Positions 15,436-64,000 of a stretch of DNA of 64,000 nucleotides are shown here, piece after piece. The position numbers and the translations under genes are program-made. Numbering within the stretch: the first letter of the stretch is position 1; every line of letters starts with the position of its first letter. The notes beneath the pieces were generated by a model. That model was not told the origin of the DNA. It saw only the letters and a list, made by a program, of their open reading frames with translations, and did no database searches. This stretch comes from Crossaster papposus (Eukaryota; Echinodermata; Asteroidea; Velatida; Solasteridae): positions 992,001 to 1,056,000 of the forward strand of contig JBAIAA010000009.1 in assembly GCA_037893245.1 (NCBI GenBank). The letters are read 5' to 3'.

Positions 15436-18400
15436 CAACGTTGTTCGAGAATGAAGAGACACTCACCAGCTCGACATCTGAGCTAACATATCGCCAACAT
15501 TCTCACCGGAAGAGACCAAAACTTTGAGACACATGCGTCAGGACACTGGCGGCATAGGCCTATGCGGCAATACACGTGTACACGCATAAACATAACAAAA
15601 CATGGCTGCGAATGAGGATAATTTTATGAACTTATATCTGAGCTGCGAACCTCAACGTTGTTCGACAATAAAGAGACACTCACCAGCTCGACATCTGAGC
15701 CAAAATATTGCCAAATTTCTCACTGGAACAAACCTAAACTTAGAGACTCATGCGTCAGGACACTGGCGGCATATGCCTATGTGGCACTACACGTGTACAT
15801 ACAAACACATCAGAAAACATGGCTGCGAATGAGGATATTTTTCTTGACATATATCTGAGCTGCGAGCCTCAACGTTGTTCGAGATTATAGAGACACTCAC
15901 CAGCTCGACATCTGAGCCAAAATATTGCCAAATTTCTCGCTGGAACAAACCTAAACTGAGAGACTCATGCGTCAGGACACTGGCGGCATAGGCCTATGTG
16001 GCAATACACGTGTACATACATACACATCAGAAAACATGGCTGCGAATAAGTATAATGTTCTCGACATATATCTGAGCTGCGAACCTCAACGTTGTTCGAG
16101 AATGAAGAGACACTCACCAACTCGACATCTGAGCCAAAATATTACCACATTTCTCACTGGAACAAACCTAAACTGAGAGACTCATGCGTCAGGACACTGG
16201 CGGCATATGCCTATGTGGCACTACACGTGTACATACAAACACATCAGAAAACATGTCTGCGAATGAGGATATTTTTCTCGACATATATCTGAGCTGCGAG
16301 CCTCAACGTTGTTCGAGATTATAGAGACACTCACCAGCTCGACATCCGAGCCAAAATATTGCCAAATTTCTCACTGGAAAAAACCGAAACTGAGAGACTC
16401 ATGCGTCAGGATACTGGCGGCATAGGCCTATGTGGCAATACACGTGTACACGCATAAACATAAGAAAACATGGCTGCGAATGAGGATACTTTTATGAACT
16501 TATATCTGAGCTACGAACCTCAACGTTGTTCGAGAATGAAGAGACACTCACCAGCTCGACATCCGAGCCAAAATATTGCCAAATTTCTCACTAGAACAAA
16601 CCTAAACTGAGAGACTCATGCGTCAGGACACTGGCGGCATATGCCTATGTGGCACTACACGTGTACATGCAAACACATCAGAAAACATGGCTGCGAATGA
16701 GGATATTTTTCTCGACATATATCTGAGCTGCGAGCCTCAACGTTGTTCGAGAATGAAGAGACACTCACAAGCTCGACATCCGAGCCAAAATATTGCCAAA
16801 TTTCTCACTGGAAAAAAAACCAAACTGTGAGACTCATGCTTCTCGACACTGGTGACATGATAATGTTCTCGACTTGTATCTGAGCTGCGAACCTCAACGT
16901 TGTTCGAGAATGAAGACACACTCACCAGCTCGACATCTGAGCCAAAATATTGCCAAATTTCTCACTCGAACAAACCTAAACTGAGAGACTCATGCGTCAG
17001 GACACTGGCGGCATATGCCTATGTGGCACTACACGTGTACATACAAACACATCAGAAAACATGGCTGCGAATGAGGATATTTTTCTCGACATATATCTGA
17101 GCTGCGAGCCTCAACGTTGTTCGAGAATGAAGAGACACTCACCAGCTCGACATCTGAGCTAACATATCGCCAACATTCTCACCGGAAGAGACCAAAACTT
17201 TGAGACACATGCGTCAGGACACTGGCGGCATAGGCCTATGCGGCAATACACGTGTACACGCATAAACATAACAAAACATGGCTGCGAATGAGGATAATTT
17301 TATGAACTTATATCTGAGCTGCGAACCTCAACGTTGTTCGACAATAAAGAGACACTCACCAGCTCGACATCTGAGCCAAAATATTGCCAAATTTCTCACT
17401 GGAACAAACCTAAACTTAGAGACTCATGCGTCAGGACACTGGCGGCATATGCCTATGTGGCACTACACGTGTACATACAAACACATCAGAAAACATGGCT
17501 GCGAATGAGGATATTTTTCTTGACATATATCTGAGCTGCGAGCCTCAACGTTGTTCGAGATTATAGAGACACTCACCAGCTCGACATCTGAGCCAAAATA
17601 TTGCCAAATTTCTCGCTGGAACAAACCTAAACTGAGAGACTCATGCGTCAGGACACTGGCGGCATAGGCCTATGTGGCAATACACGTGTACATACATACA
17701 CATCAGAAAACATGGCTGCGAATAAGTATAATGTTCTCGACATATATCTGAGCTGCGAACCTCAACGTTGTTCGAGAATGAAGAGACACTCACCAACTCG
17801 ACATCTGAGCCAAAATATTACCACATTTCTCACTGGAACAAACCTAAACTGAGAGACTCATGCGTCAGGACACTGGCGGCATATGCCTATGTGGCACTAC
17901 ACGTGTACATACAAACACATCAGAAAACATGTCTGCGAATGAGGATATTTTTCTCGACATATATCTGAGCTGCGAGCCTCAACGTTGTTCGAGATTATAG
18001 AGACACTCACCAGCTCGACATCCGAGCCAAAATATTGCCAAATTTCTCACTGGAAAAAACCGAAACTGAGAGACTCATGCGTCAGGATACTGGCGGCATA
18101 GGCCTATGTGGCAATACACGTGTACACGCATAAACATAAGAAAACATGGCTGCGAATGAGGATACTTTTATGAACTTATATCTGAGCTACGAACCTCAAC
18201 GTTGTTCGAGAATGAAGAGACACTCACCAGCTCGACATCCGAGCCAAAATATTGCCAAATTTCTCACTAGAACAAACCTAAACTGAGAGACTCATGCGTC
18301 AGGACACTGGCGGCATATGCCTATGTGGCACTACACGTGTACATGCAAACACATCAGAAAACATGGCTGCGAATGAGGATATTTTTCTCGACATATATCT

Positions 18401-18787
18401 GAGCTGCGAGCCTCAACGTTGTTCGAGAATGAAGAGACACTCACAAGCTCGACATCCGAGCCAAAATATTGCCAAATTTCTCACTGGAAAAAAAACCAAA
18501 CTGTGAGACTCATGCTTCTCGACACTGGTGACATGATAATGTTCTCGACTTGTATCTGAGCTGCGAACCTCAACGTTGTTCGAGAATGAAGACACACTCA
18601 CCAGCTCGACATCTGAGCCAAAATATTGCCAAATTTCTCACTCGAACAAACCTAAACTGAGAGACTCATGCGTCAGGACACTGGCGGCATATGCCTATGT
18701 GGCACTACACGTGTACATACAAACACATCAGAAAACATGGCTGCGAATGAGGATATTTTTCTCGACATATATCTGAGCTGCGAACCT
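15436..18787 (+). repeat. Tandem pair of a 1,676-bp eight-monomer unit
   Basis: Unit 1 is 15,436-17,111 and unit 2 is 17,112-18,787. Each has seven 217-bp monomers and one S monomer (16,738 and 18,414). Private markers include TTCGACAATAAAGAG, GCGAATAAGTATAATG, ACATGTCTGCG, GAGCTACGAACC and CACTCGAAC. I saw no difference between the two units by eye, so this duplication is very recent or strongly homogenised. Confidence 0.88.
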
Positions 18788-20575
18788 CAGAGTTGTTCGA
18801 GAATGAGGAGACACTCACCAGCTCAACATCTGAGCCAAAATATTACCAAATTTCTCACTGGAACAAACCTAAACTAAGAGACTCATGCGTCAGGACACTG
18901 GCGGCATATGCATATGTGGCAATACACGTGTACATACAAACACATCAGAAAACATGGCTGCGAATGAGCATATTTTTCACGACATATATCTGAGCTGCGA
19001 ACCTCAACGTTGTTGGAGAATGAAGAGACATTCACCACCTCCACATCTGAGCTAACATATCGCCAAAATTCCCACCGGAAGAGACCAAAACTTTGAAACA
19101 CATGCGTCAGGACACTGGCGGCATAGGCCTATGCGGCAATACACGTGTACACTCATAAACATAAGAAAACATGGCTGCGAATGAGGATATTTTTCTCGAC
19201 ATATATCTGAGCTGCGAGCCTCAACGTTGTTCGAGAATGAAGAGACACTCACCGGCTCGACATCCGAGCCAAAATATTGCCAAATTTCTCACTGGAACAA
19301 ACCTAAACTGAGAGACTCATGCGTCAGGACACTGGCGGCATATGCCTATGTGGCACTACACGTGTACATGCAAACACATCAGAAAACATGGCTGCGAATG
19401 TGGATATTTTTCTCGACATATATCTGAGCTGCGAGCCTCAACGTTGTTCGAGAATGAAGAGACATTTACCACCTCCACATGTGAGCTAACATATCGCCAA
19501 CATTCTCACCGGAAGAGACCCAAACGTTGAGACACATGCGTCAGGACACTGGCGGCATAGGCCTATGCGGCAATACACGTGTACACGCATAAACATAAAA
19601 AACATGGCTGCGAATGAGGATAATTTTATGAACTTATATCTGAGCTGCGAACCTCAACGTTGTTCGAGAATGAAGAGACACTAACCAGCTCGACATCTGA
19701 GCCAAAATATTGCCAAATTTCTCACTGGAACAAACCTAAACTGAGAGACTCATGCGTCAGGACACTGGCGCCATATGCCTATGTGGCACTACACGTGTAC
19801 ATGCAAACACATCAGAAAACATGGCTGCGAATGAGGATATTTTTCTTGACATATATCTGAGCTGCGAGCCTCAACGTTGTTCGAGAATGAAGAGACACTC
19901 ACAAGCTCGACATCCGAGCCAAAATATTGCCAAATTTCTCACTGAAAAAAAAAACCAAACTGTGAGACTCATGCTTCTGTTCACTGGTGACATGATAATG
20001 TTCTCGACATGTATCTGAGCTGCGAACCTCAACGTTTTCTAGAATGAAGAGACACTCATCAGCTCGACATCTGAGCCAAAATATTGCCAAGTTTCTCACT
20101 GGAACAAACCTAAACTGAGAGACTCATGCGTCAGGACACTGGCGGCATATGCCTATGTGGCAATACACGTGTACATACAAACACATCAGAAAACATGCCT
20201 GCGAATGAGGATATTTTTCTCGACATAAATCTGAGCTGCGAACCTCAACGTTGTTGCAGAATGAAGAAACATTCACCACCTCCACATCTGAGCTAACATA
20301 TCGCCAAAATTCTCACCGGAAGAGACCAAAACTTTGAGACACATGCGTCAGGACAATGGCGGCATAGGCCTATGCGGCAATACACGTGTACACGCATAAA
20401 CATAAGAAAACATAGCTGCGAATGAGGATAATGTTATGAACTTATATCTGAGCTGCGAACCTCAACGTTGTTCGAGAATGAAGAGACACTAACCAGCTCG
20501 ACATCTGAGCCAAAATATTGCCAAATTTCTCACTGGAACAAACCTAAACTGAGAGACTCATGCGTCAGGACACTG
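16985..20575 (+). repeat. 3.6-kb segment duplicated at offset 4,375, copy 1
   Basis: About 3.6 kb matching 21,360-24,950. Reading both copies side by side I noted one substitution, t at 20,010 against g at 24,385. The limits are set by divergence at about 16,985 (CTGAGAG versus CTTAGAG) and at about 20,576 (TGGCGGCATATG versus TGGCGCCATATG). Confidence 0.87.
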
Positions 20576-21359
20576 GCGGCATATGCCTATGTGGCAATAC
20601 ACGTGTACATACAAACACATCAGAAAACATGCCTGCGAATGAGGATATTTGTCTCGACATATATCTGAGCTGCGAACCTCAACGTTGTTCGAGAATGAAG
20701 AGACACTCACAAGCTCGACATCCGAGCCAAAATATTGCCAAATTTCTCACTGGAAAAAAAACCAAACTGTGAGACTCATGCTTCTCGACACTGGTGACAT
20801 GATAATGTTCTCGACTTGTATCTGAGCTGCGAACCTCAACGTTGTTCGAGAATGAAGACACACTCACCAGCTCGACATCTGAGCCAAAATATTGCCAAAT
20901 TTCTCACTGGAACAAACCTAAACTGAGAGACTCATGCGTCAGGACACTGGCGGCATATGCCTATGTGGCACTACACGTGTACATGCAAACACATCAGAAA
21001 ACATGGCTGCGAATGTGGATATTTTTCTCGACATATATCTGAGCTGCGAGCCTCAACGTTGTTCGAGAATGAAGAGACATTTACCACCTCCACATGTGAG
21101 CTAACATATCGCCAACATTCTCACCGGAAGAGACCCAAACGTTGAGACACATGCGTCAGGACACTGGCGGCATAGGCCTATGCGGCAATACACGTGTACA
21201 CGCATAAACATAAAAAACATGGCTGCGAATGAGGATAATTTTATGAACTTATATCTGAGCTGCGAACCTTAACGTTGTTCGAGAATGAAGAGACACTCAC
21301 CAGCTCGACATCTGAGCCAAAATATTGCCAAATTTCTCACTGGAACAAACCTAAACTTA

Positions 21360-24300
21360 GAGACTCATGCGTCAGGACACTGGCGGCATATGCCTATGTG
21401 GCACTACACGTGTACATACAAACACATCAGAAAACATGGCTGCGAATGAGGATATTTTTCTCGACATATATCTGAGCTGCGAGCCTCAACGTTGTTCGAG
21501 AATGAAGAGACACTCACCAGCTCGACATCTGAGCTAACATATCGCCAACATTCTCACCGGAAGAGACCAAAACTTTGAGACACATGCGTCAGGACACTGG
21601 CGGCATAGGCCTATGCGGCAATACACGTGTACACGCATAAACATAACAAAACATGGCTGCGAATGAGGATAATTTTATGAACTTATATCTGAGCTGCGAA
21701 CCTCAACGTTGTTCGACAATAAAGAGACACTCACCAGCTCGACATCTGAGCCAAAATATTGCCAAATTTCTCACTGGAACAAACCTAAACTTAGAGACTC
21801 ATGCGTCAGGACACTGGCGGCATATGCCTATGTGGCACTACACGTGTACATACAAACACATCAGAAAACATGGCTGCGAATGAGGATATTTTTCTTGACA
21901 TATATCTGAGCTGCGAGCCTCAACGTTGTTCGAGATTATAGAGACACTCACCAGCTCGACATCTGAGCCAAAATATTGCCAAATTTCTCGCTGGAACAAA
22001 CCTAAACTGAGAGACTCATGCGTCAGGACACTGGCGGCATAGGCCTATGTGGCAATACACGTGTACATACATACACATCAGAAAACATGGCTGCGAATAA
22101 GTATAATGTTCTCGACATATATCTGAGCTGCGAACCTCAACGTTGTTCGAGAATGAAGAGACACTCACCAACTCGACATCTGAGCCAAAATATTACCACA
22201 TTTCTCACTGGAACAAACCTAAACTGAGAGACTCATGCGTCAGGACACTGGCGGCATATGCCTATGTGGCACTACACGTGTACATACAAACACATCAGAA
22301 AACATGTCTGCGAATGAGGATATTTTTCTCGACATATATCTGAGCTGCGAGCCTCAACGTTGTTCGAGATTATAGAGACACTCACCAGCTCGACATCCGA
22401 GCCAAAATATTGCCAAATTTCTCACTGGAAAAAACCGAAACTGAGAGACTCATGCGTCAGGATACTGGCGGCATAGGCCTATGTGGCAATACACGTGTAC
22501 ACGCATAAACATAAGAAAACATGGCTGCGAATGAGGATACTTTTATGAACTTATATCTGAGCTACGAACCTCAACGTTGTTCGAGAATGAAGAGACACTC
22601 ACCAGCTCGACATCCGAGCCAAAATATTGCCAAATTTCTCACTAGAACAAACCTAAACTGAGAGACTCATGCGTCAGGACACTGGCGGCATATGCCTATG
22701 TGGCACTACACGTGTACATGCAAACACATCAGAAAACATGGCTGCGAATGAGGATATTTTTCTCGACATATATCTGAGCTGCGAGCCTCAACGTTGTTCG
22801 AGAATGAAGAGACACTCACAAGCTCGACATCCGAGCCAAAATATTGCCAAATTTCTCACTGGAAAAAAAACCAAACTGTGAGACTCATGCTTCTCGACAC
22901 TGGTGACATGATAATGTTCTCGACTTGTATCTGAGCTGCGAACCTCAACGTTGTTCGAGAATGAAGACACACTCACCAGCTCGACATCTGAGCCAAAATA
23001 TTGCCAAATTTCTCACTCGAACAAACCTAAACTGAGAGACTCATGCGTCAGGACACTGGCGGCATATGCCTATGTGGCACTACACGTGTACATACAAACA
23101 CATCAGAAAACATGGCTGCGAATGAGGATATTTTTCTCGACATATATCTGAGCTGCGAACCTCAGAGTTGTTCGAGAATGAGGAGACACTCACCAGCTCA
23201 ACATCTGAGCCAAAATATTACCAAATTTCTCACTGGAACAAACCTAAACTAAGAGACTCATGCGTCAGGACACTGGCGGCATATGCATATGTGGCAATAC
23301 ACGTGTACATACAAACACATCAGAAAACATGGCTGCGAATGAGCATATTTTTCACGACATATATCTGAGCTGCGAACCTCAACGTTGTTGGAGAATGAAG
23401 AGACATTCACCACCTCCACATCTGAGCTAACATATCGCCAAAATTCCCACCGGAAGAGACCAAAACTTTGAAACACATGCGTCAGGACACTGGCGGCATA
23501 GGCCTATGCGGCAATACACGTGTACACTCATAAACATAAGAAAACATGGCTGCGAATGAGGATATTTTTCTCGACATATATCTGAGCTGCGAGCCTCAAC
23601 GTTGTTCGAGAATGAAGAGACACTCACCGGCTCGACATCCGAGCCAAAATATTGCCAAATTTCTCACTGGAACAAACCTAAACTGAGAGACTCATGCGTC
23701 AGGACACTGGCGGCATATGCCTATGTGGCACTACACGTGTACATGCAAACACATCAGAAAACATGGCTGCGAATGTGGATATTTTTCTCGACATATATCT
23801 GAGCTGCGAGCCTCAACGTTGTTCGAGAATGAAGAGACATTTACCACCTCCACATGTGAGCTAACATATCGCCAACATTCTCACCGGAAGAGACCCAAAC
23901 GTTGAGACACATGCGTCAGGACACTGGCGGCATAGGCCTATGCGGCAATACACGTGTACACGCATAAACATAAAAAACATGGCTGCGAATGAGGATAATT
24001 TTATGAACTTATATCTGAGCTGCGAACCTCAACGTTGTTCGAGAATGAAGAGACACTAACCAGCTCGACATCTGAGCCAAAATATTGCCAAATTTCTCAC
24101 TGGAACAAACCTAAACTGAGAGACTCATGCGTCAGGACACTGGCGCCATATGCCTATGTGGCACTACACGTGTACATGCAAACACATCAGAAAACATGGC
24201 TGCGAATGAGGATATTTTTCTTGACATATATCTGAGCTGCGAGCCTCAACGTTGTTCGAGAATGAAGAGACACTCACAAGCTCGACATCCGAGCCAAAAT

Positions 24301-24950
24301 ATTGCCAAATTTCTCACTGAAAAAAAAAACCAAACTGTGAGACTCATGCTTCTGTTCACTGGTGACATGATAATGTTCTCGACAGGTATCTGAGCTGCGA
24401 ACCTCAACGTTTTCTAGAATGAAGAGACACTCATCAGCTCGACATCTGAGCCAAAATATTGCCAAGTTTCTCACTGGAACAAACCTAAACTGAGAGACTC
24501 ATGCGTCAGGACACTGGCGGCATATGCCTATGTGGCAATACACGTGTACATACAAACACATCAGAAAACATGCCTGCGAATGAGGATATTTTTCTCGACA
24601 TAAATCTGAGCTGCGAACCTCAACGTTGTTGCAGAATGAAGAAACATTCACCACCTCCACATCTGAGCTAACATATCGCCAAAATTCTCACCGGAAGAGA
24701 CCAAAACTTTGAGACACATGCGTCAGGACAATGGCGGCATAGGCCTATGCGGCAATACACGTGTACACGCATAAACATAAGAAAACATAGCTGCGAATGA
24801 GGATAATGTTATGAACTTATATCTGAGCTGCGAACCTCAACGTTGTTCGAGAATGAAGAGACACTAACCAGCTCGACATCTGAGCCAAAATATTGCCAAA
24901 TTTCTCACTGGAACAAACCTAAACTGAGAGACTCATGCGTCAGGACACTG
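21360..24950 (+). repeat. 3.6-kb segment duplicated at offset 4,375, copy 2
   Basis: Partner of 16,985-20,575. It includes the third 1,676-bp unit, the CAGAG-type unit at 23,163 and the S monomers at 22,789 and 24,247. Its last unit, with CGTTTTCTAGAATG, is followed by another copy of the A-with-GCGCCATATG unit. Confidence 0.87.
21487..23162 (+). repeat. Third copy of the 1,676-bp unit
   Basis: Matches 17,112-18,787 at offset 4,375 with all the same private markers, and its S monomer starts at 22,789. It lies inside the larger 4,375-offset duplication, so it was probably copied as part of that longer segment. Confidence 0.87.
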
Positions 24951-25866
24951 GCGCCATATGCCTATGTGGCACTACACGTGTACATGCAAACACATCAGAA
25001 AACATGGCTGCGAATGAGGATATTTTTCTTGACATATATCTGAGCTGCGAGCCTCAGCGTTGTTCGAGAATGAAGAGACACTCACAAGCTCGACATCCGA
25101 GCCAAAATATTGCCAAATTTCTCACTGAAAAAAAAAACCAAACTGTGAGACTCATGCTTCTGTTCACTGGTGACATGATAATGTTCTCGACATGTATCTG
25201 AGCTGCGAACCTCAACGTTGTTCTAGAATGAAGAGACAATCATCAGCTCGACATCTGAGCCAAAATATTGCCAAGTTTCTCACTGGAACAAACCTAAACT
25301 GAGAGACTCATGCGTCAGGACACTGGCGGCATATGCCTATGTGGCACTACACGTGTACATACAAACACATCAGAAAAAATGGCTGCGAATGAGGATAATG
25401 TTCTCGACATATATCTGAGCTGCGAACCTCAACGTTGTTCGAGAATGAAGAGACACTAACAAGGTCGACATCTGAGCCAAAATATTGCCAAATTTCACAC
25501 TGGAACAAACCTAAACTGAGAGACTCATGCGTCAGGACACTGGCGGCATATGCCTATGTGGCACTACACGTGTACATGCAAACACATCAGAAAACATGGC
25601 TGCGAATGAGGATATTTTTCTCGACTTTTATCTGAGCTGCGAGCCTCAACGTTGTTCGAGAATGAAGAGACACTCACAAGCTCGACATCCGAGCCAAAAT
25701 ATTGCCAAATTTCTCACTGAAAAAAACCCACCAAACTGATAGACTCATGCGTCAGGATACTGGCGGTATAGGCCTATGTGGCAATACACGTGTACAAACA
25801 TACACATCAGAAAACATGTCTGCGAATGAGGATAATGTTCTCGACATATATCTGAGCTGCGAATCT

Positions 25867-27326: not shown

Positions 27327-28454
27327 CAACGTTGTTCGAGAATGAACAGACACTCACCAGCTCGACATTTGAGCCAAAATATTGCCAAATTTCTCACTGG
27401 AACAAACCTAAACTGAGAGACTCATGCGTCACGACACTGGCGGCATATGCCTATGTGGCAATACACGTGTACATACAAACACATCAGAAAACATGGCTGC
27501 GAATGAGGATAATGTTCTCGACATATATCTGAGCTGCGAACCTCAACGTTGTTCGAGAATGAGGAGACACTCACCAGCTCGACATCTGAGCCAAAATATT
27601 GCCAAATTTCTCACTGGAACAAACCTAAACTGAGAGACTCATGGGTCAGGACACTGGCGGCATATGCCTATGTGGCAATACACGTGTACATACAAACACA
27701 TCAGAAAACATGCCTGCGAATGAGGATATTTTTCTCGACATATATCTGAGCTGCAAACCTCAACGTTGTTGGAGAATGAAGAGACATTCACCACCTCCAC
27801 ATCTGAGCTAACATATCGCCAAAATTCTCACCGGAAGAGACCAAAACTTTGAGACACATGCGTCAGGACACTGGCGGCATAGGCCTATGCGGCAATACAC
27901 GTGTACACGCATAAACATAAGAAAACATGGCTGTGAATGAGGATAATTTTATGAACTTATATCTGAGCTGCGAACCCCAACGTTGTTCGAGAATGAAGAG
28001 ACACTCACCAGCTCGACATCCGAGCCAAAATATTGCCAAAGTTCTCACTCGAACAAACCTAAACTTAGAGACTTATGCGTCAGGACACTGGCGGCATATG
28101 CCTATGTGGCACTACACGTGTACATACAAACACATCAGAAAACATGGCTGCGAATGAGGATATTTTTCTCGACATATATCTGAGCTGCGAGCCTCAACGT
28201 TGTTCGAGATTATAGAGACACTCACCAGCTCGACATCCGAGCCAAAATATTGCCAAATTTCTCACTGGAAAAAATCCAAACTGAGAGACTCATGCGTCAG
28301 GATACTGGCGGCATAGGCCTATGTGGCAATACACGTGTACATACATACACATCAGAAAACATGGCTGCGAATGAGGATAATGTTCTCGACATATATCTGA
28401 GCTGCGAACCTCAACGTTGTTCGAGATTATAGAGACACTCACCAGCTCGACATC

Positions 28455-30235
28455 TGAGCTAACATATCGCCAAAATTCTCACCGGAAGAGACCAAAACTT
28501 TGAAACACATGCGTCAGGACACTGGCGGCATAGGCCTATGCGGCAATACACGTGTACACTCATAAACATAAGAAAACATGGCTGCGAATGAGGATATTTT
28601 TCTCGACATATATCTGAGCTGCGAACCTCAACGTTGTTCGAGAATAAAGAGACACTCACCAGCTCGACATCCGAGCCAAAATATTGCCAAATTTCTCACT
28701 GGAACAAACCTAAACTTAGAGACTCATGCGTCAGGACACTGGCGGCATATGCCTATTTGGCACTACACGTGTACATACAAACACATCAGAAAACATGGCT
28801 GCGAATGAGGATATTTTTCTTGACATATATCTGAGCTGCGAGCCTCAACGTTGTTCGAGATTATAGAGACACTCACCAGCTCGACATCTGAGCCAAAATA
28901 TTGCCAAATTTCTCGCTGGAACAAACCTAAACTGAGAGACTCATGCGTCAGGACACTGGCGGCATAGGCCTATGTGGCAATACACGTGTACATACATACA
29001 CATCAGAAAACATGGCTGCGAATAAGGATAATGTTCTCGACATATATCTGAGCTGCGAACCTCAACGTTGTTCGAGAATAAAGAGACACTCACCAACTCG
29101 ACATCTGAGCCAAAATATTACCAAATTTCTCACTGGAACAAACCTAAACTGAGAGACTCATGCGTCAGGACACTGGCGGCATATGCCTATGTGGCAATAC
29201 ACGTGTACATACATACACATCAGAAAACATGGCTGCGAATAAAGATATTTTTCTCGACATATATCTGAGCTGCGAGCCTCAACGTTGTTCGAGAATGAAG
29301 AGACACTCACAAGCTCGACATCCGAGCCAAAATATTGCCAAATTTCTCACTGGCAAAAAAACCAAACTGTGAGACTCATGCTTCTGGACACTGGTGACAT
29401 GATAATGTTCTCGACATGTATCTGAGCTGCGAACCTCAACGTTGTTCGAGAATGAAGAGACACTCATCAGCTCGACATCTGAGCCAAAATATTGCCAAAT
29501 TTCTCACTGGAACAAACCTAAACTGAGAGACTCATGCGTCAGGACACTGGCGGCATATGCCTATGTGGCACTACACGTGTACATACAAACACTTCAGAAA
29601 ACAAGGCTGCGAATGAGGATATTTTTCTCGACATATATCTGAGCTGCGAGCCTCAACGTTGTTCGAGATTATAAAGACACTCACCAGATCGACATCCGAG
29701 CCAAAATATTGCCAAATTTCTCACTGGAAAAAACCCAAACTGAGAGACTCATGCGTCAGGATACTGGCGGCATAGGCATATGTGGCAATACACGTGTACA
29801 TACATACACATCAGAAAACATGGCTGCGAATGAGGATAATGTTCTCGACATAAATCTGAGCTGCGAACCTCAGAGTTGTTCGAGAATGAGGAGACACTCA
29901 CCAGCTCAACATCTGAGCCAAAATATTACCAAATTTCTCACTGGAACAAACCTAAACTGAGAGACTCATGCGTCAGGACACTGGCGGCATATGCATATGT
30001 GGCAATACACGTGTACATACAAACACATCAGAAAACATGGCTGCGAATGACCATATTTTTCACGACATATATCTGAGCTGCGAACCTCAACGTTGTTGGA
30101 GAATGAAGAGACATTCACCACCTCCACATCTGAGCTAACATATCGCCAAAATTCTCACCGGAAGAGACCAAAACTTTGAAACACATGCGTCAGGACACTG
30201 GCGGCATAGGCCTATGCGGCAATACACGTGTACAC
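28455..30235 (+). repeat. Segment duplicated at 30,783-32,563 (offset 2,328 bp)
   Basis: Shared markers are GAGAATAAAGAGACAC, TTTTTCTTGACAT, CGAATAAGGATAATG, CTGGCAAAAAAACC, AACACTTCAGAAAACAAGG and CCTCAGAG/GG. The unit is ten full monomers plus one S (29,280 / 31,608). The copies part at the C half, with ACACTCATAAAC here and ACACGCATAAAC in the second copy. Confidence 0.84.
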
Positions 30236-32035
30236 TCATAAACATAAGAAAACATGGCTGCGAATGAGGATATTTTTTTTCGACATATATCTGAGCTGCG
30301 AGCCTCAACGTTGTTCGAGAATGAAGAGACACTCACCGGCTCGACATCCGAGCCAAAATATTGCCAAATTTCTCACTGGAACAAACCTAAACTGAGAGAC
30401 TCATGCGTCAGGACACTGGCGGCATATGCCTATGTGGCAATACACGTGTACATAAAAACACATTAGAAAACATGCCTGCGAATGAGGATATTTTTCTCGA
30501 CATAAATCTGAGCTGCGAACCTCAGAGTTGTTCGAGAATGAGGAGACACTCACCAGCTCAACATCTGAGCCAAAATATTACCAAATTTCTCACTGGAACA
30601 AACCTAAACTGAGAGACTCATGCGTCAGGACACTGGCGGCATATGCATATGTGGCAATACACGTGTACATACAAACACATCAGAAAACATGGCTGCGAAT
30701 GAGCATATTTTTCACGACATATATCTGAGCTGCGAACCTCAACGTTATTGGAGAATGAAGAGACATTCACCACCTCCACATCTGAGCTAACATATCGCCA
30801 AAATTCTCACCGGAATAGACCAAAACTTTGAAACACATGCGTCAGGACACTGGCGGCATAGGCCTATGCGGCAATACACGTGTACACTCATAAACATAAG
30901 AAAACATGGCTGCGAATGAGGATATTTTTCTCGACATATATCTGAGCTGCGAACCTCAACGTTGTTCGAGAATAAAGAGACACTCACCAGCTCGACATCC
31001 GAGCCAAAATATTGCCAAATTTCTCACTGGAACAAACCTAAACTTAGAGACTCATGCGTCAGGACACTGGCGGCATATGCCTATGTGGCACTACACGTGT
31101 ACATACAAACACATCAGAAAACATGGCTGCGAATGAGGATATTTTTCTTGACATATATCTGAGCTGCGAGCCTCAACGTTGTTCGAGATTATAGAGACAC
31201 TCACCAGCTCGACATCTGAGCCAAAATATTGCCAAATTTCTCGCTGGAACAAACCTAAACTGAGAGACTCATGCGTCAGGACACTGGCGGCATAGGCCTA
31301 TGTGGCAATACACGTGTACATACATACACATCAGAAAACATGGCTGCGAATAAGGATAATGTTCTCGACATATATCTGAGCTGCGAACCTCAACGTTGTT
31401 CGAGAATAAAGAGACACTCACCAACTCGACATCTGAGCCAAAATATTACCAAATTTCTCACTGGAACAAACCTAAACTGAGAGACTCATGCGTCAGGACA
31501 CTGGCGGCATATGCCTATGTGGCAATACACGTGTACATACATACACATCAGAAAACATGGCTGCGAATAAAGATATTTTTCTCGACATATATCTGAGCTG
31601 CGAGCCTCAACGTTGTTCGAGAATGAAGAGACACTCACAAGCTCGACATCCGAGCCAAAATATTGCCAAATTTCTCACTGGCAAAAAAACCAAACTGTGA
31701 GACTCATGCTTCTGGACACTGGTGACATGATAATGTTCTCGACATGTATCTGAGCTGCGAACCTCAACGTTGTTCGAGAATGAAGAGACACTCATCAGCT
31801 CGACATCTGAGCCAAAATATTGCCAAATTTTTCACTGGAACAAACCTAAACTGAGAGACTCATGCGTCAGGACACTGGCGGCATATGCCTATGTGGCACT
31901 ACACGTGTACATACAAACACTTCAGAAAACAAGGCTGCGATTGAGGATATTTTTCTCGACATATATCTGAGCTGCGAGCCTCAACGTTGTTCGAGATTAT
32001 AAAGACACTCACCAGATCGACATCCGAGCCAAAAT
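29265..32035 (+). repeat. 2.8-kb segment duplicated at 33,690-36,460 (offset 4,425 bp)
   Basis: Fourteen consecutive anchors match at offset 4,425, from 29,280/33,705 to 31,982/36,407, including the same 218-bp unit with a long T-run (at about 30,281 and 34,706). The match ends inside the unit at 36,407, where sequence switches to that of the unit at 32,199. That gives a hybrid monomer at the breakpoint. Confidence 0.84.
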
Positions 32036-33004
32036 ATTGCCAAATTTCTCACTGGAAAAAACCCAAACTGAGAGACTCATGCGTCAGGATACTGGCGGCA
32101 TAGGCATATGTGGCAATACACGTGTACATACATACACATCAGAAAACATGGCTGCGAATGAGGATAATGTTCTCGACATAAATCTGAGCTGCGAACCTCA
32201 GAGGTGTTCGAGAATGAGGAGACACTCACCAGCTCAACATCTGAGCCAAAATATTACCAAATTTCTCACTGGAACAAACCTAAACTGAGAGACTCATGCG
32301 TCAGGACACTGGCGGCATATGCATATGTGGCAATACACGTGTACATACAAACACATCAGAAAACATGGCTGCGAATGAGCATATTTTTCACGACATATAT
32401 CTGAGCTGCGAACCTCAACGTTGTTGGAGAATGAAGAGACATTCACCACCTCCACATCTGAGCTAACATATCGCCAAAATTCTCACCGGAAGAGACCAAA
32501 ACTTTGAAACACATGCGTCAGGACACTGGCGGCATAGGCCTATGCGGCAATACACGTGTACACGCATAAACATAAAAAAACATGGCTGCGAATGAGGATA
32601 ATTTTATGAACTTATATCTGAGCTGCGAACCTCAACGTTGTTCGAGAATGAAGAGACACTCACCAGCTCGACATCTGAGCCAAAATATTGCCAAATTTCT
32701 CACTGGAACAAACCTAAACTTAGAGACTCATGCGTCAGGACACTGGCGGCATATGCCTATGTGGCACTACACGTGTACATACAAACACATCAGAAAACAT
32801 GGCTGCGAATGAGGATATTTTTCTCGACATATATCTGAGCTGCGAGCCTCAACGTTGTTCGAGAATGAAGAGACACTCACCAGCTCGACATCCGAGCCAA
32901 AATAATGCCAAATTTCTCACTGGAAAAAACCCAAACTGAGAGACTCATGCGTCAGGATACTGGCGGCATAGGCCTATGTGGCAATACACGTGTACATGCA
33001 CGTT

Positions 33005-33020
33005 TGTTTATGGTGTAAAT
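33005..33020 (+). repeat. Left terminal inverted repeat core, copy 1
   Basis: TGTTTATGGTGTAAAT, the exact reverse complement of 33,179-33,194. It continues imperfectly outward to the element end and inward as CGAGGA against GGAGGA. The matching core in copy 2 is at 37,213-37,228. Confidence 0.85.
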
Positions 33021-33178
33021 CGAGGAGTTTCCTTTGTTCCTCTCGAAAATTTCCTTTGTTTGTACTCTAACGTTTTTCGACGGCTCTCATTGGTTTTGTA
33101 CACGAATCTCAATCGAGGTCGTCCTCTATTCTAACCCTAACCCCAATTCACCTTCGTGTCGCCAGGTATGTGTCCTCC

Positions 33179-33194
33179 ATTTACACCATAAACA
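33179..33194 (-). repeat. Right terminal inverted repeat core, copy 1
   Basis: ATTTACACCATAAACA, pairing perfectly with 33,005-33,020. In copy 2 it is at 37,387-37,402. Confidence 0.85.
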
Positions 33195-36100
33195 GACGCA
33201 TACATACACATCAGAAAACATGGCTGCGAAAGAGGATAATGTTCTCGACATATATCTGAGCTGCGAACCTCAACGTTGTTCGAGAATGAAGAGACACTCA
33301 CCAGCTCGACATCTGAGCCAAAATATTGCCAAATTTCTCGCTGGAACAAACCTAAACTGAGAGACTCATGCGTCAGGACACTGGCGGCATAGGCCTATGT
33401 GGCAATACACGTGTACATACATACACATCAGAAAACATGGCTGCGAATGAGGATAATGTTCTCGACATATATCTGAGCTGCGAACCTCAACGTTGTTCGA
33501 GAATGAAGAGACACTCACCAACTCGACATCTGAGCCAAAATATTACCAAATTTCTCACTGGAACAAACCTTAACTGAGAGACTCGTGCGTCAGGACACTG
33601 GCGGCATATGCCTATGTGGCACTACACGTGTACATACAAACACATCAGAAAACATGACTGCGAATGAGGATATTTTTCTCGACATATATCTGAGCTGCGA
33701 GCCTCAACGTTGTTCGAGAATGAAGAGACACTCACAAGCTCGACATCCGAGCCAAAATATTGCCAAATTTCTCACTGGCAAAAAAACCAAACTGTGAGAC
33801 TCATGCTTCTGGACACTGGTGACATGATAATGTTCTCGACATGTATCTGAGCTGCGAACCTCAACGTTGTTCGAGAATGAAGAGACACTCATCAGCTCGA
33901 CATCTGAGCCAAAATATTGCCAAATTTCTCACTGGAACAAACCTAAACTGAGAGACTCATGCGTCAGGACACTGGCGGCATATGCCTATGTGGCACTACA
34001 CGTGTACATACAAACACTTCAGAAAACAAGGCTGCGAATGAGGATATTTTTCTCGACATATATCTGAGCTGCGAGCCTCAACGTTGTTCGAGATTATAAA
34101 GACACTCACCAGATCGACATCCGAGCCAAAATATTGCCAAATTTCTCACTGGAAAAAACCCAAACTGAGAGACTCATGCGTCAGGATACTGGCGGCATAG
34201 GCATATGTGGCAATACACGTGTACATACATACACATCAGAAAACATGGCTGCGAATGAGGATAATGTTCTCGACATAAATCTGAGCTGCGAACATCAGAG
34301 TTGTTCGAGAATGAGGAGACACTCACCAGCTCAACATCTGAGCCAAAATATTACCAAATTTCTCACTGGAACAAACCTAAACTGAGAGACTCATGCGTCA
34401 GGACACTGGCGGCATATGCATATGTGGCAATACACGTGTACATACAAACACATCAGAAAACATGGCTGCGAATGACCATATTTTTCACGACATATATCTG
34501 AGCTGCGAACCTCAACGTTGTTGGAGAATGAAGAGACATTCACCACCTCCACATCTGAGCTAACATATCGCCAAAATTCTCACCGGAAGAGACCAAAACT
34601 TTGAAACACATGCGTCAGGACACTGGCGGCATAGGCCTATGCGGCAATACACGTGTACACTCATAAACATAAGAAAACATGGCTGCGAATGAGGATATTT
34701 TTTTTCGACATATATCTGAGCTGCGAGCCTCAACGTTGTTCGAGAATGAAGAGACACTCACCGGCTCGACATCCGAGCCAAAATATTGCCAAATTTCTCA
34801 CTGGAACAAACCTAAACTGAGAGACTCATGCGTCAGGACACTGGCGGCATATGCCTATGTGGCAATACACGTGTACATAAAAACACATTAGAAAACATGC
34901 CTGCGAATGAGGATATTTTTTTCGACATAAATCTGAGCTGCGAACCTCAGAGTTGTTCGAGAATGAGGAGACACTCACCAGCTCAACATCTGAGCCAAAA
35001 TATTACCAAATTTCTCACTGGAACAAACCTAAACTGAGAGACTCATGCGTCAGGACACTGGCGGCATATGCATATGTGGCAATACACGTGTACATACAAA
35101 CACATCAGAAAACATGGCTGCGAATGAGCATATTTTTCACGACATATATCTGAGCTGCGAACCTCAACGTTATTGGAGAATGAAGAGACATTCACCACCT
35201 CCACATCTGAGCTAACATATCGCCAAAATTCTCACCGGAAGAGACCAAAACTTTGAAACACATGCGTCAGGACACTGGCGGCATAGGCCTATGCGGCAAT
35301 ACACGTGTACACTCATAAACATAAGAAAACATGGCTGCGAATGAGGATATTTTTCTCGACATATATCTGAGCTGCGAACCTCAACGTTGTTCGAGAATAA
35401 AGAGACACTCACCAGCTCGACATCCGAGCCAAAATATTGCCAAATTTCTCACTGGAACAAACCTAAACTTAGAGACTCATGCGTCAGGACACTGGCGGCT
35501 TATGCCTATGTGGCACTACACGTGTACATACAAACACATCAGAAAACATGGCTGCGAATGAGGATATTTTTCTTTACATATATCTGAGCTGCGAGCCTCA
35601 ACGTTGTTCGAGATTATAGAGACACTCACCAGCTCGACATCTGAGCCAAAATATTGCCAAATTTCTCGCTGGAACAAACCTAAACTGAGAGACTCATGCG
35701 TCAGGACACTGGCGGCATAGGCATATGTGGCAATACACGTGTACATACATACACATCAGAAAACATGGCTGCGAATAAGGATAATGTTCTCGACATATAT
35801 CTGAGCTGCGAACCTCAACGTTGTTCGAGAATAAAGAGACACTCACCAACTCGACATCTGAGCCAAAATATTACCAAATTTCTCACTGGAACAAACCTAA
35901 ACTGAGAGACTCATGCGTCAGGACACTGGCGGCATATGCCTATGTGGCAATACACGTGTACATACATACACATCAGAAAACATGGCTGCGAATAAAGATA
36001 TTTTTCTCGACATATATCTGAGCTGCGAGCCTCAACGTTGTTCGAGAATGAAGAGACACTCACAAGCTCGACATCCGAGCCAAAATATTGCCAAATTTCT

Positions 36101-37205
36101 CACTGGCAAAAAAACCAAACTGTGAGACTCATGCTTCTGGACACTGGTGACATGATAATGTTCTCGACATGTATCTGAGCTGCGAACCTCAACGTTGTTC
36201 GAGAATGAAGAGACACTCATCAGCTCGACATCTGAGCCAAAATATTGCCAAATTTTTCACTGGAACAAACCTAAACTGAGAGACTCATGCGTCAGGACAC
36301 TGGCGGCATATGCCTATGTGGCACTACACGTGTACATACAAACACTTCAGAAAACAAGGCTGCGAATGAGGATATTTTTCTCGACATATATCTGAGCTGC
36401 GAGCCTCAACGTTGTTCGAGATTATAAAGACACTCACCAGATCGACATCCGAGCCAAAATATTACCAAATTTCTCACTGGAACAAACCTAAACTGAGAGA
36501 CTCATGCGTCAGGACACTGGCGGCATATGCATATGTGGCAATACACGTGTACATACAAACACATCAGAAAACATGGCTGCGAATGAGCATATTTTTCACG
36601 ACATATATCTGAGCTGCGAACCTCAACGTTGTTGGAGAATGAAGAGACATTCACCACCTCCACATCTGAGCTAACATATCGCCAAAATTCTCACCGGAAG
36701 AGACCAAAACTTTGAAACACATGCGTCAGGACACTGGCGGCATAGGCCTATGCGGCAATACACGTGTACACGCATAAACATAAAAAAACATGGCTGCGAA
36801 TGAGGATAATTTTATGAACTTATATCTGAGCTGCGAACCTCAACGTTGTTCGAGAATGAAGAGACACTCACCAGCTCGACATCTGAGCCAAAATATTGCC
36901 AAATTTCTCACTGGAACAAACCTAAACTTAGAGACTCATGCGTCAGGACACTGGCGGCATATGCCTATGTGGCACTACACGTGTACATACAAACACATCA
37001 GAAAACATGGCTGCGAATGAGGATATTTTTCACGACATATATCTGAGCTGCGAGCCTCAACGTTGTTCGAGATTGAAGAGACACTCACCAGCTCGACATC
37101 CGAGCCAAAATAATGCCAAATTTCTCACTGGAAAAAACCCAAACTGAGAGACTCATGCGTCAGGATACTGGCGGCATAGGCCTATGTGGCAATACACGTG
37201 TACAT

Positions 37206-37408
37206 GCACGTTTGTTTATGGTGTAAATCGAGGAGTTTCCTTTGTTCCTCTCGAAAATTTCCTTTGTTTGTACTCTAACGTTTTTCGACGGCTCTCATTG
37301 GTTTTGTACACGAATCTCAATCGAGGTCGTCCTCGATTCTAACCCTAACCCCAATTCACCTTCGTGTCGCCAGGTATGTGTCCTCCATTTACACCATAAA
37401 CAGACGCA
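37206..37408. mobile_element. 203-bp terminal-inverted-repeat element, copy 2
   Basis: Same element at the same place in the monomer and at exactly the 4,208-bp offset of the surrounding duplication. It is therefore a passenger copy and not a second insertion. The only difference I saw from copy 1 is g at 37,335 (t at 33,127). Confidence 0.8.
37319..37338. other. Perfect hairpin inside the element, copy 2
   Basis: AATCGAGG, four-base loop TCGT, CCTCGATT: a perfect 8-bp stem. In copy 1 (33,111-33,130) the right arm reads CCTCTATT, so one pair is lost. AATCGAGG also occurs directly next to the left terminal repeat (33,018-33,025). Confidence 0.75.
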
Positions 37409-37794
37409 TACATACACATCAGAAAACATGGCTGCGAAAGAGGATAATGTTCTCGACATATATCTGAGCTGCGAACCTCAACGTTGTTCGAGAATGAAGA
37501 GACACTCACCAGCTCGACATCTGAGCCAAAATATTGCCAAATTTCTCGCTGGAACAAACCTAAACTGAGAGACTCATGCGTCAGGACACTGGCGGCATAG
37601 GCCTATGTGGCAATACACGTGTACATACATACACATCAGAAAACATGGCTGCGAATGAGGATAATGTTCTCGACATATATCTGAGCTGCGAACCTCAACG
37701 TTGTTCGAGAATGAAGAGACACTCACCAACTCGACATCTGAGCCAAAATATTACCAAATTTCTCACTGGAACAAACCTAAACTGAGAGACTCAT

Positions 37795-39410
37795 GCGTCA
37801 GGACACTGGCGGCATATGCCTATGTGGCACTACACGTGTACATACAAACACATCAGAAAACATGACTGCGAATGAGGATATTTTTCTCGACATATATCTG
37901 AGCTGCGAGCCTCAACGTTGTTCGAGAATGAAGAGACACTCACAAGCTCGACATCCGAGCCAAAATATTGCCAAATTTCTCACTGGCAAAAAAACCAAAC
38001 TGTGAGACTCATGCTTCTGGACACTGGTGACATGATAATGTTCTCGACATGTATCTGAGCTGCGAACCTCAACGTTGTTCGAGAATGAAGAGACACTCAT
38101 CAGCTCGACATCTGAGCCAAAATATTGCCAAATTTCTCACTGGAACAAACCTAAACTGAGAGACTCATGCGTCAGGACACTGGCGGCATATGCCTATGTG
38201 GCACTACACGTGTACATACAAACACTTCAGAAAACAAGGCTGCGAATGAGGATAATGTTCTCGACATATATCTGAGCTGAGAACCTCAACGTTGTTTGAG
38301 AATGAAGAGACACTCACCAGCTCGACATCTGAGCCAAAATATTGCCAAATTTCTCACTGGAACAAATCTAAACTGAGAGACTCATGCGTCAGGACACTGG
38401 CGGCATATGCCTATGTGGCAATACACGTGTACATACAAACACATCAGAAAACATGCCTGCGAATGAGGATATTTTTCTCGACATATATCTGAGCTGCGAA
38501 CCTCAACGTTGTTGGAGAATGAAGAGACATTCACCACCTCCACATCTGAGCTAACATATCGCCAAAATTCTCACCGGAAGAAACCAAAACTTTAAGACAC
38601 ATGCGTCAGGACACTGGCGGCATATGCCTATGTGGCACTACACGTGTACATACAAACACATCAGAAAACATGACTGCGAATGAGGATATTTTTCTCGACA
38701 TATATCTGAGCTGCGAGCCTCAACGTTGTTCGAGAATGAAGAGACACTCACAAGCTCGACATCCGAGCCAAAATATTGCCAAATTTCTCACTGGCAAAAA
38801 AACCAAACTGTGAGACTCATGCTTCTGGACACTGGTGACATGATAATGTTCTCGACATGTATCTGAGCTGCGAACCTCAACGTTGTTCGAGAATGAAGAG
38901 ACACTCATCAGCTCGACATCTGAGCCAAAATATTGCCAAATTTCTCACTGGAACAAACCTAAACTGAGAGACTCATGCGTCAGGACACTGGCGGCATATG
39001 CCTATGTGGCACTACACGTGTACATACAAACACTTCAGAAAACAAGGCTGCGAATGAGGATAATGTTCTCGACATATATCTGAGCTGCGAACCTCAACGT
39101 TGTTTGAGAATGAAGAGACACTCACCAGCTCGACATCTGAGCCAAAATATTGCCAAATTTCTCACTGGAACAAATCTAAACTGAGAGACTCATGCGTCAG
39201 GACACTGGCGGCATATGCCTATGTGGCAATACACGTGTACATACAAACACATCAGAAAACATGCCTGCGAATGAGGATATTTTTCTCGACATATATCTGA
39301 GCTGCGAACCTCAACGTTGTTGGAGAATGAAGAGACATTCACCACCTCCACATCTGAGCTAACATATCGCCAAAATTCTCACCGGAAGAAACCAAAACTT
39401 TAAGACACAT
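37795..39410 (+). repeat. 808-bp tandem duplication (three full monomers plus S)
   Basis: Anchors 37,913 / 38,721, 38,070 / 38,878, 38,287 / 39,095 and 38,504 / 39,312 match at offset 808. One visible difference is GAGCTGAGAACC (38,275) against GAGCTGCGAACC (39,083). Shared markers are CATGACTGCG, AACACTTCAG, GTTTGAGAATG and AACAAATCTAAAC. Confidence 0.85.
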
Positions 39411-39528: not shown

Positions 39529-42012
39529 CAACGTTGTTCGAGAATGAAGAGACACTCACCAGCTCGACATCCGAGCCAAAATATTGCCAAATTTCTCACT
39601 GGAAAAAAAACCAAACTGTGAGACTCATGCTTCTGGACACTGGTGACATGATAATGTTCTCGACTTGTATCTGAGCTGCGAATCTCAACGTTGTTCGAGA
39701 ATGAAGACACACTCACCAGCTCGACATCTGAGCCAAAATATTGCCAAATTTCTCACTGGAACAAACCTAAACTGAGAAACTCATGCGTCAGGACACTGGC
39801 GGCATATGCCTATGTGGCACTACACGTGTACATACAAACACATCAGAAAACATGGCTGCGAATGAGGATATTTTTCTCGACATATATCTGAGCTGCGAGC
39901 CTCAACGTTGTTCGAGAATGAAGAGACACTCACCAGCTCGACATCTGAGCCAAAATATTGCCAAATTTCTCACTGGAACAAACCTAAACTTAGCGACTCA
40001 TGCGTCAGGACACTGGCGGCATATGCCTATGTGGCACTACACGTGTACATACAAACACATCAGAAAACATGGCTGCGAATGAGGATATTTTTCTCGACAT
40101 ATATCTGAGCTGCGAGCCTCAACGTTGTTCGAGAAGGAAGAGACACTCACCAGCTCGACATCCGAGCCAAAATAATGCCAAATTTCTCACTTGAAAAAAC
40201 CCAAACTGAGATACTCATGCGTCAGGATACTGGCGGCATAGGCCTATGTGGCAATACACGTGTACATACATACACATCAGAAAACATGGCTGCGAATGAG
40301 GATAATGTTCTCGACATATATCTGAGCTGCGAACCTCAACGTTGTTCGAGAATGAAGAGACACTCACCAGCTCGACATCTGAGCCAAAATATTGCCAAAT
40401 TTCTCGCTGGAACAAACCTAAACTGAGAGACTCATGCGTCAGGACACTGGCGGCATAGGCCTATGTGGCAATACACGTGTACATACATACACATCAGAAA
40501 ACATGGCTGCGAATGAGGATAATGTTCTCGACATATATCTGAGCTGCGAACCTCAACGTTGTTCGAGAATGAAGAGACACTCACCAACTCAACATCTGAG
40601 CCAAAATATTACCAAATTTCTCACTGGAACAAACCTAAACTGAGAGACTCATGCGTCAGGACACTGGCGGCATATGCCTATGTGGCACTACACGTGTACA
40701 TACAAACACATCAGAAAACATGACTGCGAATGAGGATATTTTTCTCGACATATATCTGAGCTGCGAGCCTCAACGTTGTTCGAGAATGAAGAGACACTCA
40801 CAAGCTCGACATCCGAGCCAAAATATTGCCAAATTTCTCACTGGAAAAAAAACCAAACTGTGAGACTCATGCTTCTGGATACTGGTGACATGATAATGTT
40901 CTCGACTTGTATCTGAGCTGCGAATCTCAACGTTGTTCGAGAATGAAGACACACTCACCAGCTCGACATCTGAGCCAAAATATTGCCAAATTTCTCACTG
41001 GAACAAACCTAAACTGAGAGACTCATGCGTCAGGACACTGGCGGCATATGCCTATGTGGCACTACACGTGTACATACAAACACATCAGAAAACATGGCTG
41101 CGAATGAGGATATTTTTCTCGACATATATCTGAGCTGCGAGCCTCAACGTTGTTCGAGAATGAAGAGACACTCACCAGCTCGACATCCGAGCCAAAATAT
41201 TGCCAAATTTCTCACTGGAACAAACCTAAACTGAGAGACTCATGCGTCAGGACACTGGCGGCATATGCCTATGTGGCACTACACGTGTACATGCAAACAC
41301 ATCAGAAAACATGGCTGCGAATGAGGATATTTTTCTCTACATATATCTGAGCTGCGAGCCTCAACGTTGTTCGAGATTGAAGAGACATTCACCACCTCCA
41401 CATCTGAGCTAACATATCGCCAACATTCTCACCGGAATAGACCAAAACTTTGAGACACATGCGTCAGGACACTGGCGGCATAGGCCTATGCGGCAATACA
41501 CGTGTACACGCATAAACATAAAAAAACATGGCTGCGAATGAGGATAATTTTATGAACTTATATCTGAGCTGCGAACCTCAACGTTGTTCGAGAATGAAGA
41601 GACACTCACCAGCTCGACATCTGAGCCAAAATATTGCCAAATTTCTCACTGGAACAAACCTAAACTGAGAGACTCATGCGTCAGGACACTGGCGGCATAG
41701 GCCTATGTGGCAATACACGTGTACATACATACACATCAGAAAACATGGCTGCGAATGAGGATAATGTTCTCGACATATATCTGAGCTGCGAACCTCAACG
41801 TTGTTCGAGAATGAAGAGACACTCACCAGCTCGACATCTGAGCCAAAATATTACCAAATTTCTCACTGGAAAAAAACCAAACTGAGAAACTCATGGGTCA
41901 GGACACTGGCGGCATATGCATATGTGGCACTACACGTGTACATGCAAACACATCAGAAAACATGGCTGCGAATGAGGATATTTTTCTCGACATATATCTG
42001 AGCTGCGAGCCT
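39529..42012 (+). repeat. Two 1,242-bp spaced S blocks
   Basis: S monomers at 39,529, 40,771 and 42,013 are 1,242 bp apart (five full units plus one S). The segments after the first two share TCGACTTGTATCTG, GCGAATCTCAACG and GAAGACACACTC. The third S is of the ATGTATATGAGC subtype, so the repeat is partial. Confidence 0.7.
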
Positions 42013-54242: not shown

Positions 54243-54392
54243 CAACGTTGTTCGAGAATGAAGAGACACTCACCAGCTCAGGACACTGGCGGCATAGGCC
54301 TATGAGGCAATACACGTGTACATACATACACATAAGAAAACATGGCTACGAATGAGGATAATTTTGTCGACATATATCTGAGCTGCGATCCT
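54243..54392 (+). repeat. Monomer with 67-bp deletion (150 bp) at a block junction
   Basis: Here CACCAGCTC joins straight to AGGACACTGGCGG. Deletion and junction share TCA, consistent with microhomology or unequal pairing. To its right lie units (54,393 and 54,610) that match 47,197 and 47,414, with the rare GCGATCCTC and TTTTGTCGAC variants. To its left is a block related to 51.6-52.7 kb. Confidence 0.85.
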
Positions 54393-55149
54393 CAACGTTG
54401 TTCGAGAATGAAGAGACACTCACCAGCTCGACATCCGAGCCAAAATATTGCCAAATTTCTCACTGAAAAAAATCCAAACTGAGAGACTCATGCGTCAGGA
54501 TACTGGCGGCATAGGCCTATGTGGCAATACACGTGTACATACATACACATCAGAAAACATGGCTGCGAATGAGGATAATGTTCTCGATATATATCTGAGC
54601 TGCGAACCTCAACGTTGTTCGAGAATGAAGAGACACTCACCAGCTCGACATCCGAGCCAAAATATTGCCAAATTTCTCACTGGAACAATCCTAAACTGAG
54701 AGACTCATGCGTCAGGACACTGGCGGCATATGCCTATGTAGCAATACACGTGTATATACATACACATCAGAAAACATGGCTGCGAATGAGGATAATGTTC
54801 TCGACATATATCTGAGCTGCCAACCTCAACGTTGTTCGAGAATGAAGAGACACTCACCAGCTCGACATCTGAGCCAAAATATTGCCAAATGTCTCACGGG
54901 AACAAACCTAAACTGAGAGACTCATGCGTCAGGACACTGGCGGCATATGCCTATGTGGCAATACACGTGTACATACAAACACATCAGAAAACATGGCTGC
55001 GAATGAGGATAATTTTATGAACTTATATCTGAGCTGCGAACCTCAACGTTGTTTGAGAATGAAGAGACACTCGCCTGCTCGAAATCTGAGCCAAAATATT
55101 TCCAAATTTCTCACTGGAAAAAACCCAAACTGTTAGACTCATACGTCAG

Positions 55150-63800: not shown

Positions 63801-64000
63801 ACCTAAACTTAGAGACTCATGCGTCAGGACACTGGCGGCATATGCCTATGTGGCACTACACGTGTACATACAAACACATCAGAAAACATGGCTGCGAATG
63901 AGAATATTTTTCTCGACATATATCTGAGCTGCGAGCCTCAACGTTGTTCGAGAATGAAGAGACACTCACCAGCTCGACATCAGAGCCAAAATATTGCCAA
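57646..64000 (+). repeat. 2,603-bp twelve-monomer HOR, two full copies and a partial third
   Basis: Copies are 57,646-60,248, 60,249-62,851 and 62,852 to the window edge. Twelve anchors in a row repeat at offset 2,603 (2,605 at the C half of the third copy, where the A-run is longer). Differences are few: GTTTGAG at 60,255 only, CATCAGTAAAC at 57,804 only, CCTCAAGGTTG at 61,983 only, AAAACCTTGAG at 62,717 only, and TGCATAAAC at 58,445 only. The right edge of the HOR lies outside the window. Confidence 0.88.

Follow-up and report, generated by a model that had tools for sequence, protein, structure and literature searches.

How did two almost identical copies of a short foreign element come to lie 4,208 bp apart within an otherwise pure satellite array? 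The locus is part of a 64,000-nt stretch of the Crossaster papposus genome (GenBank assembly GCA_037893245.1, contig JBAIAA010000009.1, positions 992,001 to 1,056,000 of the forward strand), here called the window, in which positions are counted from the first nucleotide. The whole window represents one satellite array in a single orientation, with a monomer of 217 bp and shorter variants of about 157 bp. Of 270 monomer intervals, 217 have a length of exactly 217 bp; a consensus monomer was built from these and was doubled for comparison by blastn. The consensus covered 63,604 of the 64,000 bases, and no minus-strand matches to it were found in the window. The 396 bases without a satellite match form just two stretches of 198 bp each (33001-33198 and 37209-37406). 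A preliminary description, made from the sequence alone, had called the element the only non-satellite DNA present, and this holds. We consider it likely that the element was inserted once and was subsequently duplicated as a passenger, by a misaligned exchange between satellite repeats.

Both copies of the element, to which we assigned no strand, lie outside the satellite consensus and are bounded by CGTTTG...CAGACG. They differ by one substitution, T at 33127 in copy 1 and G at 37335 in copy 2; the same single difference over 203 bp, and the spacing of 4,208 bp, had been reported in the preliminary description and were confirmed. The ends of copy 1 form a terminal inverted repeat (TIR) of 26 bp, in which the left arm (33001-33026, plus strand) matches the right arm (33173-33198, minus strand) at 24 of 26 positions. 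Among 20,000 dinucleotide shuffles, none did better than 17 of 26. Inside this repeat we recovered, from a table of 14-mers, the perfect 16-bp inverted core that had been described before (33005-33020 versus 33179-33194). When folded as single-stranded DNA, the element ends pair, with z-scores of -3.46 and -4.65. An internal hairpin at 33111-33130 (no strand assigned), AATCGAGG-tcgt-CCTC(T/G)ATT, includes the variable site. In copy 2, which has the G, the stem is a perfect 8 bp (AATCGAGG-tcgt-CCTCGATT), and in copy 1 the T leaves one mismatch. Because G completes the perfect hairpin, it is probably the older state at this site, a polarity that we infer from the stem. Miniature inverted-repeat transposable elements (MITEs) are short and noncoding, carry TIRs, are flanked by a target-site duplication and have many dispersed copies and an autonomous partner. 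With its 198 bp, the present element is too short to encode a transposase. Judged by its structure, it appears to be a short, non-autonomous TIR transposon of the cut-and-paste type, and we refer to it as MITE-like.

Compared with empty sites, the insertion is clean: the flanks break off and start again at points where uninterrupted paralogues run on, and the satellite match ends and resumes exactly at the inverted-repeat ends. The putative target-site duplications, all on the plus strand, read CATGCA on the left (32995-33000 for copy 1, 37203-37208 for copy 2) and CATACA on the right (33199-33204 and 37407-37412). Their CAT part is exact, and the left ones are identical at an offset of 4208. 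The flanks at the insertion point, CACGTGTACATGCA and CATACATACACATCAG, together measure 30 bp. One search pattern caught 265 empty sites. Of these, 249 measure 24 bp; the remaining 16 were scored as 21 bp (14 sites) or 23 bp (2 sites) and, from reading the strings, are taken to be 24-bp sites that the pattern cut early in an A-run. The net insertion is therefore 204 bp. This gain fits a 198-bp element whose 6-bp duplication has one mismatch (CATGCA/CATACA). It also fits, though in our view less probably, an element of 201 bp flanked by two perfect copies of CAT (3 bp); in both cases the length of 203 bp given in the preliminary description needs correction. A two-base duplication (CA) would be unparsimonious, as it needs an empty site of 28 bp, a length at odds with the 249 sites of 24 bp. 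Of the 265 empty sites, 167 have CATACA in the six-base slot, 39 have CATGCA and 59 have other spellings. Since both spellings are common at the slot, the mismatch between the two sides of the element is explicable by one later change or conversion.

Several element-free sites resemble the flanks closely. At 40051-40494 (plus strand), CACGTGTACAT runs directly into ACATACACATCAG, and this paralogue is the best match to the right flank (1 mismatch in 230, with 3 at the next best site), while its left flank has 3 mismatches in 217. The element-free sites at 53523, 55842 and 57143 are better on the left flank, with 2 mismatches in 217 each. When the flanks were joined (150 bp each, CAT once), the best empty sites were 40118 (4/300), 2392 and 53590 (5/300 each), and under the six-base reading they were 53593 (4) and 40121 (5). 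As the best sites for the left and the right flank differ, no single site stands out as the parental monomer. Leftward from 40051-40494, mismatches per 217-bp block amount to 12, 54 and 165 (the last block out of phase), and rightward to 3, 3, 5 (a 197-bp block) and 13. Such a rise away from the empty site is as expected for a constantly reshuffled satellite.

To delimit the duplication, we looked for long stretches that are nearly identical at ungapped offsets between 100 and 19,999, and examined the best 60. At offset 4,208, positions 32243-34046 match 36451-38254 with 5 mismatches in 1,804 bp (99.7% identical). The 4,208-bp satellite duplication of the preliminary description is thus present in this block, but upstream the similarity continues at offset 4,425, where 28865-32038 match 33290-36463 with 16 mismatches in 3,174 bp. 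We therefore rejected a simple 4,208-bp duplication as the entire event. The duplication consists of units of 4,425 and 4,208 bp and a partial third, and the two offsets differ by 217 because one 217-bp monomer is absent, in register, from unit 2.

At the junction of the units, three repeat blocks of 757 bp on the plus strand can be compared: A0 (28865-29621) and A2 (37498-38254), the left and right partners of the inferred exchange, and A1 (33290-34046) between them. When the part corresponding to A0 coordinates 28840-29759 was compared site by site, the middle stretch proved to share its state with the right one at 11 positions (33267-33668) and with the left one at 14 (34047-34161), and to have a state of its own at 2 (33571 and 33585). 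Hence, the junction block is A2-like up to 33668 and A0-like from 34047. The 378 bp in between (33669-34046, plus strand) are identical in A0, A1 and A2 and would be the location of the exchange. For an unequal exchange, the middle copy is expected to be a mosaic of the outer two, and this is what we observed.

The following history would account for these structures. A transposase supplied from elsewhere would have inserted the element a single time into a 217-bp monomer, in the spacer CACGTGTACATACATACACATCAG or its CATGCA variant, most simply with duplication of 6 bp of the target. A0 and A2, approximately 4.4 kb apart and located on sister chromatids or homologues, would then have undergone a misaligned exchange. 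By this exchange the 4.4-kb segment between them would have been duplicated in tandem and the element carried along, resulting in the order A0, element-bearing segment, hybrid block, element-bearing segment, A2. Unit 2 would have lost one 217-bp monomer in register, unless unit 1 gained one. The sequence itself shows the TIRs, the clean insertion, the paralogous positions of the two copies, the mosaic junction and the length difference of one monomer. We infer the action of a transposase, the timing of the monomer difference, and that a crossover took place and not break-induced or slipped replication. Passages of PMC8122249 name unequal crossover (the Smith model) as a driver of satellite evolution, and break-induced replication as well. 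In the model an out-of-register exchange duplicates a segment of several monomers, and a mosaic junction like the one found here is the expected product; the difference is that a foreign element here marks the unit and distinguishes both units from the surrounding repeats. Break-induced replication as named there could produce the same structure; if its junction were the same, it would be indistinguishable from an exchange, as would slipped replication.

The order of events, with the insertion first and the passenger duplication second, is well supported. Empty sites, identical insertion points, matching flanks and the mosaic junction all support one insertion followed by segmental copying, as the preliminary description had proposed. 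Further copies in the array, which it would have used to tell passenger amplification from independent insertions, were sought in this window; no third copy was found there, even at relaxed blastn settings. The preliminary description had also regarded the element as a dated marker. The relative order stands, whereas the dating is weak. Between the units, 12 of 4,599 aligned sites are different (0.26%; 95% Poisson interval 0.13 to 0.46%). This comparison omits the stretch left of the exchange and includes the identical interval of 378 bp in both of its alignments; with this interval counted once, the divergence is 12/4,221 or 0.28%. The flanks account for 11 differences in 4,401 bp, a rate that predicts 0.5 differences in 198 bp, and the element has 1. 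The element is consequently no better clock than the satellite around it, and we rejected dating by its single substitution as uninformative. In addition, homogenisation can reset such sequence clocks.

Several observations weigh against a single insertion followed by misaligned exchange. The 6-bp duplication carries its one mismatch, and the perfect duplication of only 3 bp implies unequal ends, with an extra GCA at the left end only. No one element-free site is the top match on both flanks. Of the 11 sites at which the middle stretch follows A2, 4 fall immediately to the left of the block; the 14 sites at which it follows A0 fall immediately to its right. Other orders of events are possible, because additional repeats are nested in the region (offsets 2328 and 2097). 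Moreover, no relative was found in the collections searched, and the mobility of the element is accordingly presumptive. Finally, a misjoin of alleles inside the identical 378-bp interval would give the same mosaic. The last point belongs to an assembly artefact, in which two alleles or reads of one locus, differing by approximately 0.26% and one monomer and with one element per chromosome, would have been placed in tandem. The unit difference of 12 in 4,599 has the size of ordinary heterozygosity. However, an overlap of 378 bp would be short for long reads, and the many nested near-identical duplications of the array, with differing offsets (4375, 2603, 2328, 1676, 808 and others), are expected of a real satellite, which makes such an artefact unlikely.

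That one transposon family inserted twice, independently, at the same target is conceivable in so far as the target slot is a repeated motif with 265 comparable empty sites, but we find it hardly credible. The flanks of both copies have private variants in common, for example the 14-mers from 33218 over GCGAAAGAGG, which occur only twice in the window. Neither the 99.7% identity of the flanks over 1,804 bp nor the same imperfect CATGCA/CATACA ends would be expected from independent events. It is also quite improbable that the element is filler DNA, or a captured fragment with inverted ends arising by chance, inserted during break repair. The short perfect target duplication of 3 bp would suit such an origin, as would the lack of relatives in the viral, prokaryotic, plasmid and phage sequences searched; against it, the 24/26 inverted repeat sits at exactly both ends and lies far beyond the shuffles, and the satellite match stops and restarts precisely at these ends. 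Exact-match pattern scans detected neither the element nor the satellite in viral contigs or in prokaryotic genome contigs, and the element had no blastn match among plasmids and phages. These negative results say little, because a eukaryotic repeat is not expected in such collections and the contig scans need exact matches.

To place the element among known transposons, we compared it with superfamilies as characterised in passages of PMC12730594 and PMC3706591. Fungal IS3EU families have the termini TAYGG..CCRTA and a 6-bp target duplication (PMC12730594). The element likewise has a putative 6-bp duplication, and TATGG and CCATA sit 8 bp inside both of its ends, but its outermost ends are CGTTTG..CAGACG. 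If the ends are instead placed at TATGG..CCATA, the flanking six bases, TTTGTT and AACAGA, are not a direct repeat, and we treat kinship with IS3EU as a possible lead only. The hAT6 group comprises hAT families with 6-bp target duplications (PMC12730594), a length that the putative duplication of the element would share. The usual hAT duplication of 8 bp (PMC12730594) does not fit, since TACATGCA and CATACATA mismatch with ends at 33001 and 33198. EnSpm/CACTA elements, with CAC..GTG termini and a 3-bp duplication (PMC12730594), do not fit the termini CGTTTG..CAGACG or GCACG..CAGACG. Dada elements duplicate 6-7 bp, insert in small RNA genes and, in the families described, have no TIRs (PMC3706591). 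They do not fit either, given that the element has 26-bp TIRs and a satellite as its target, and that no Rfam match was found up to E = 1 in the 32-38 kb segment. As a long shot, the element may belong to an undescribed group whose ends are CGTYTG, whose target duplications measure 6 bp and whose preferred target in the satellite is the partly palindromic spacer GTGTACATACATACAC. If true, this preference would make the satellite both a place where the element can land safely and a machine that copies it.

According to passages of PMC12628747, insertion of transposable elements into satellite DNA arrays is observed, and a mariner-like element and a MITE in Messor ant heterochromatin are cited there by title. 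The present case is similar in that a short TIR element lies within a satellite array. It differs in that a traceable duplication of the host satellite follows, whereas the routes described in those passages mostly turn the transposable element itself into a satellite.

In homogeneous satellite DNA, an insertion of foreign sequence serves as a useful landmark. Retroelement insertions are reported to have been duplicated along with centromere satellites in Arabidopsis and human arrays. Here the element makes one duplication readable, with its likely partners, the lengths of its units, the 378 bp in which the junction lies and the subsequent divergence. This provides a worked case for models of satellite array growth; the mechanism itself is not new, and the finding is a well-resolved, clean instance of known, ordinary satellite evolution.

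The satellite itself was also inspected for genes. Its consensus monomer begins with ATGGCTGCGAATGAGG, which opens a frame of 46 codons from an ATG in most 217-bp monomers. The 46-residue reading was obtained from 98 of the 217 monomers, one such reading gave no match in Pfam, and the diversity at codon positions 1, 2 and 3 is 0.110, 0.098 and 0.072, so that the third position is the least variable. On these grounds we rejected the satellite as a present-day gene; speculatively, the frame may be what remains of a first exon. No tRNA genes were found across the whole window. The CpG observed/expected ratio is 0.89 for the window and 1.33 for the element, and neither value gives a sign of strong CpG loss.

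Furthermore, the window contains other large repeats. A nested duplication with offset 2,328 in 28450-32563 (6 mismatches in 1,786 bp) lies at the element-bearing unit, and as a result of this nesting A-type blocks recur at approximately 28865, 31193, 33290, 35618 and 37498. Another large tandem duplication, without a foreign element, joins 16918-20578 to 21293-24953 at offset 4,375 with 3 mismatches in 3,661 bp; at 0.08% it looks younger than the element-bearing one. In addition, a higher-order repeat of 2,603 bp is present in 57541-63667 (8 mismatches in 3,524 bp), and the same offset also aligns 54278-61395 with 56881-64000 at 97.0% identity.

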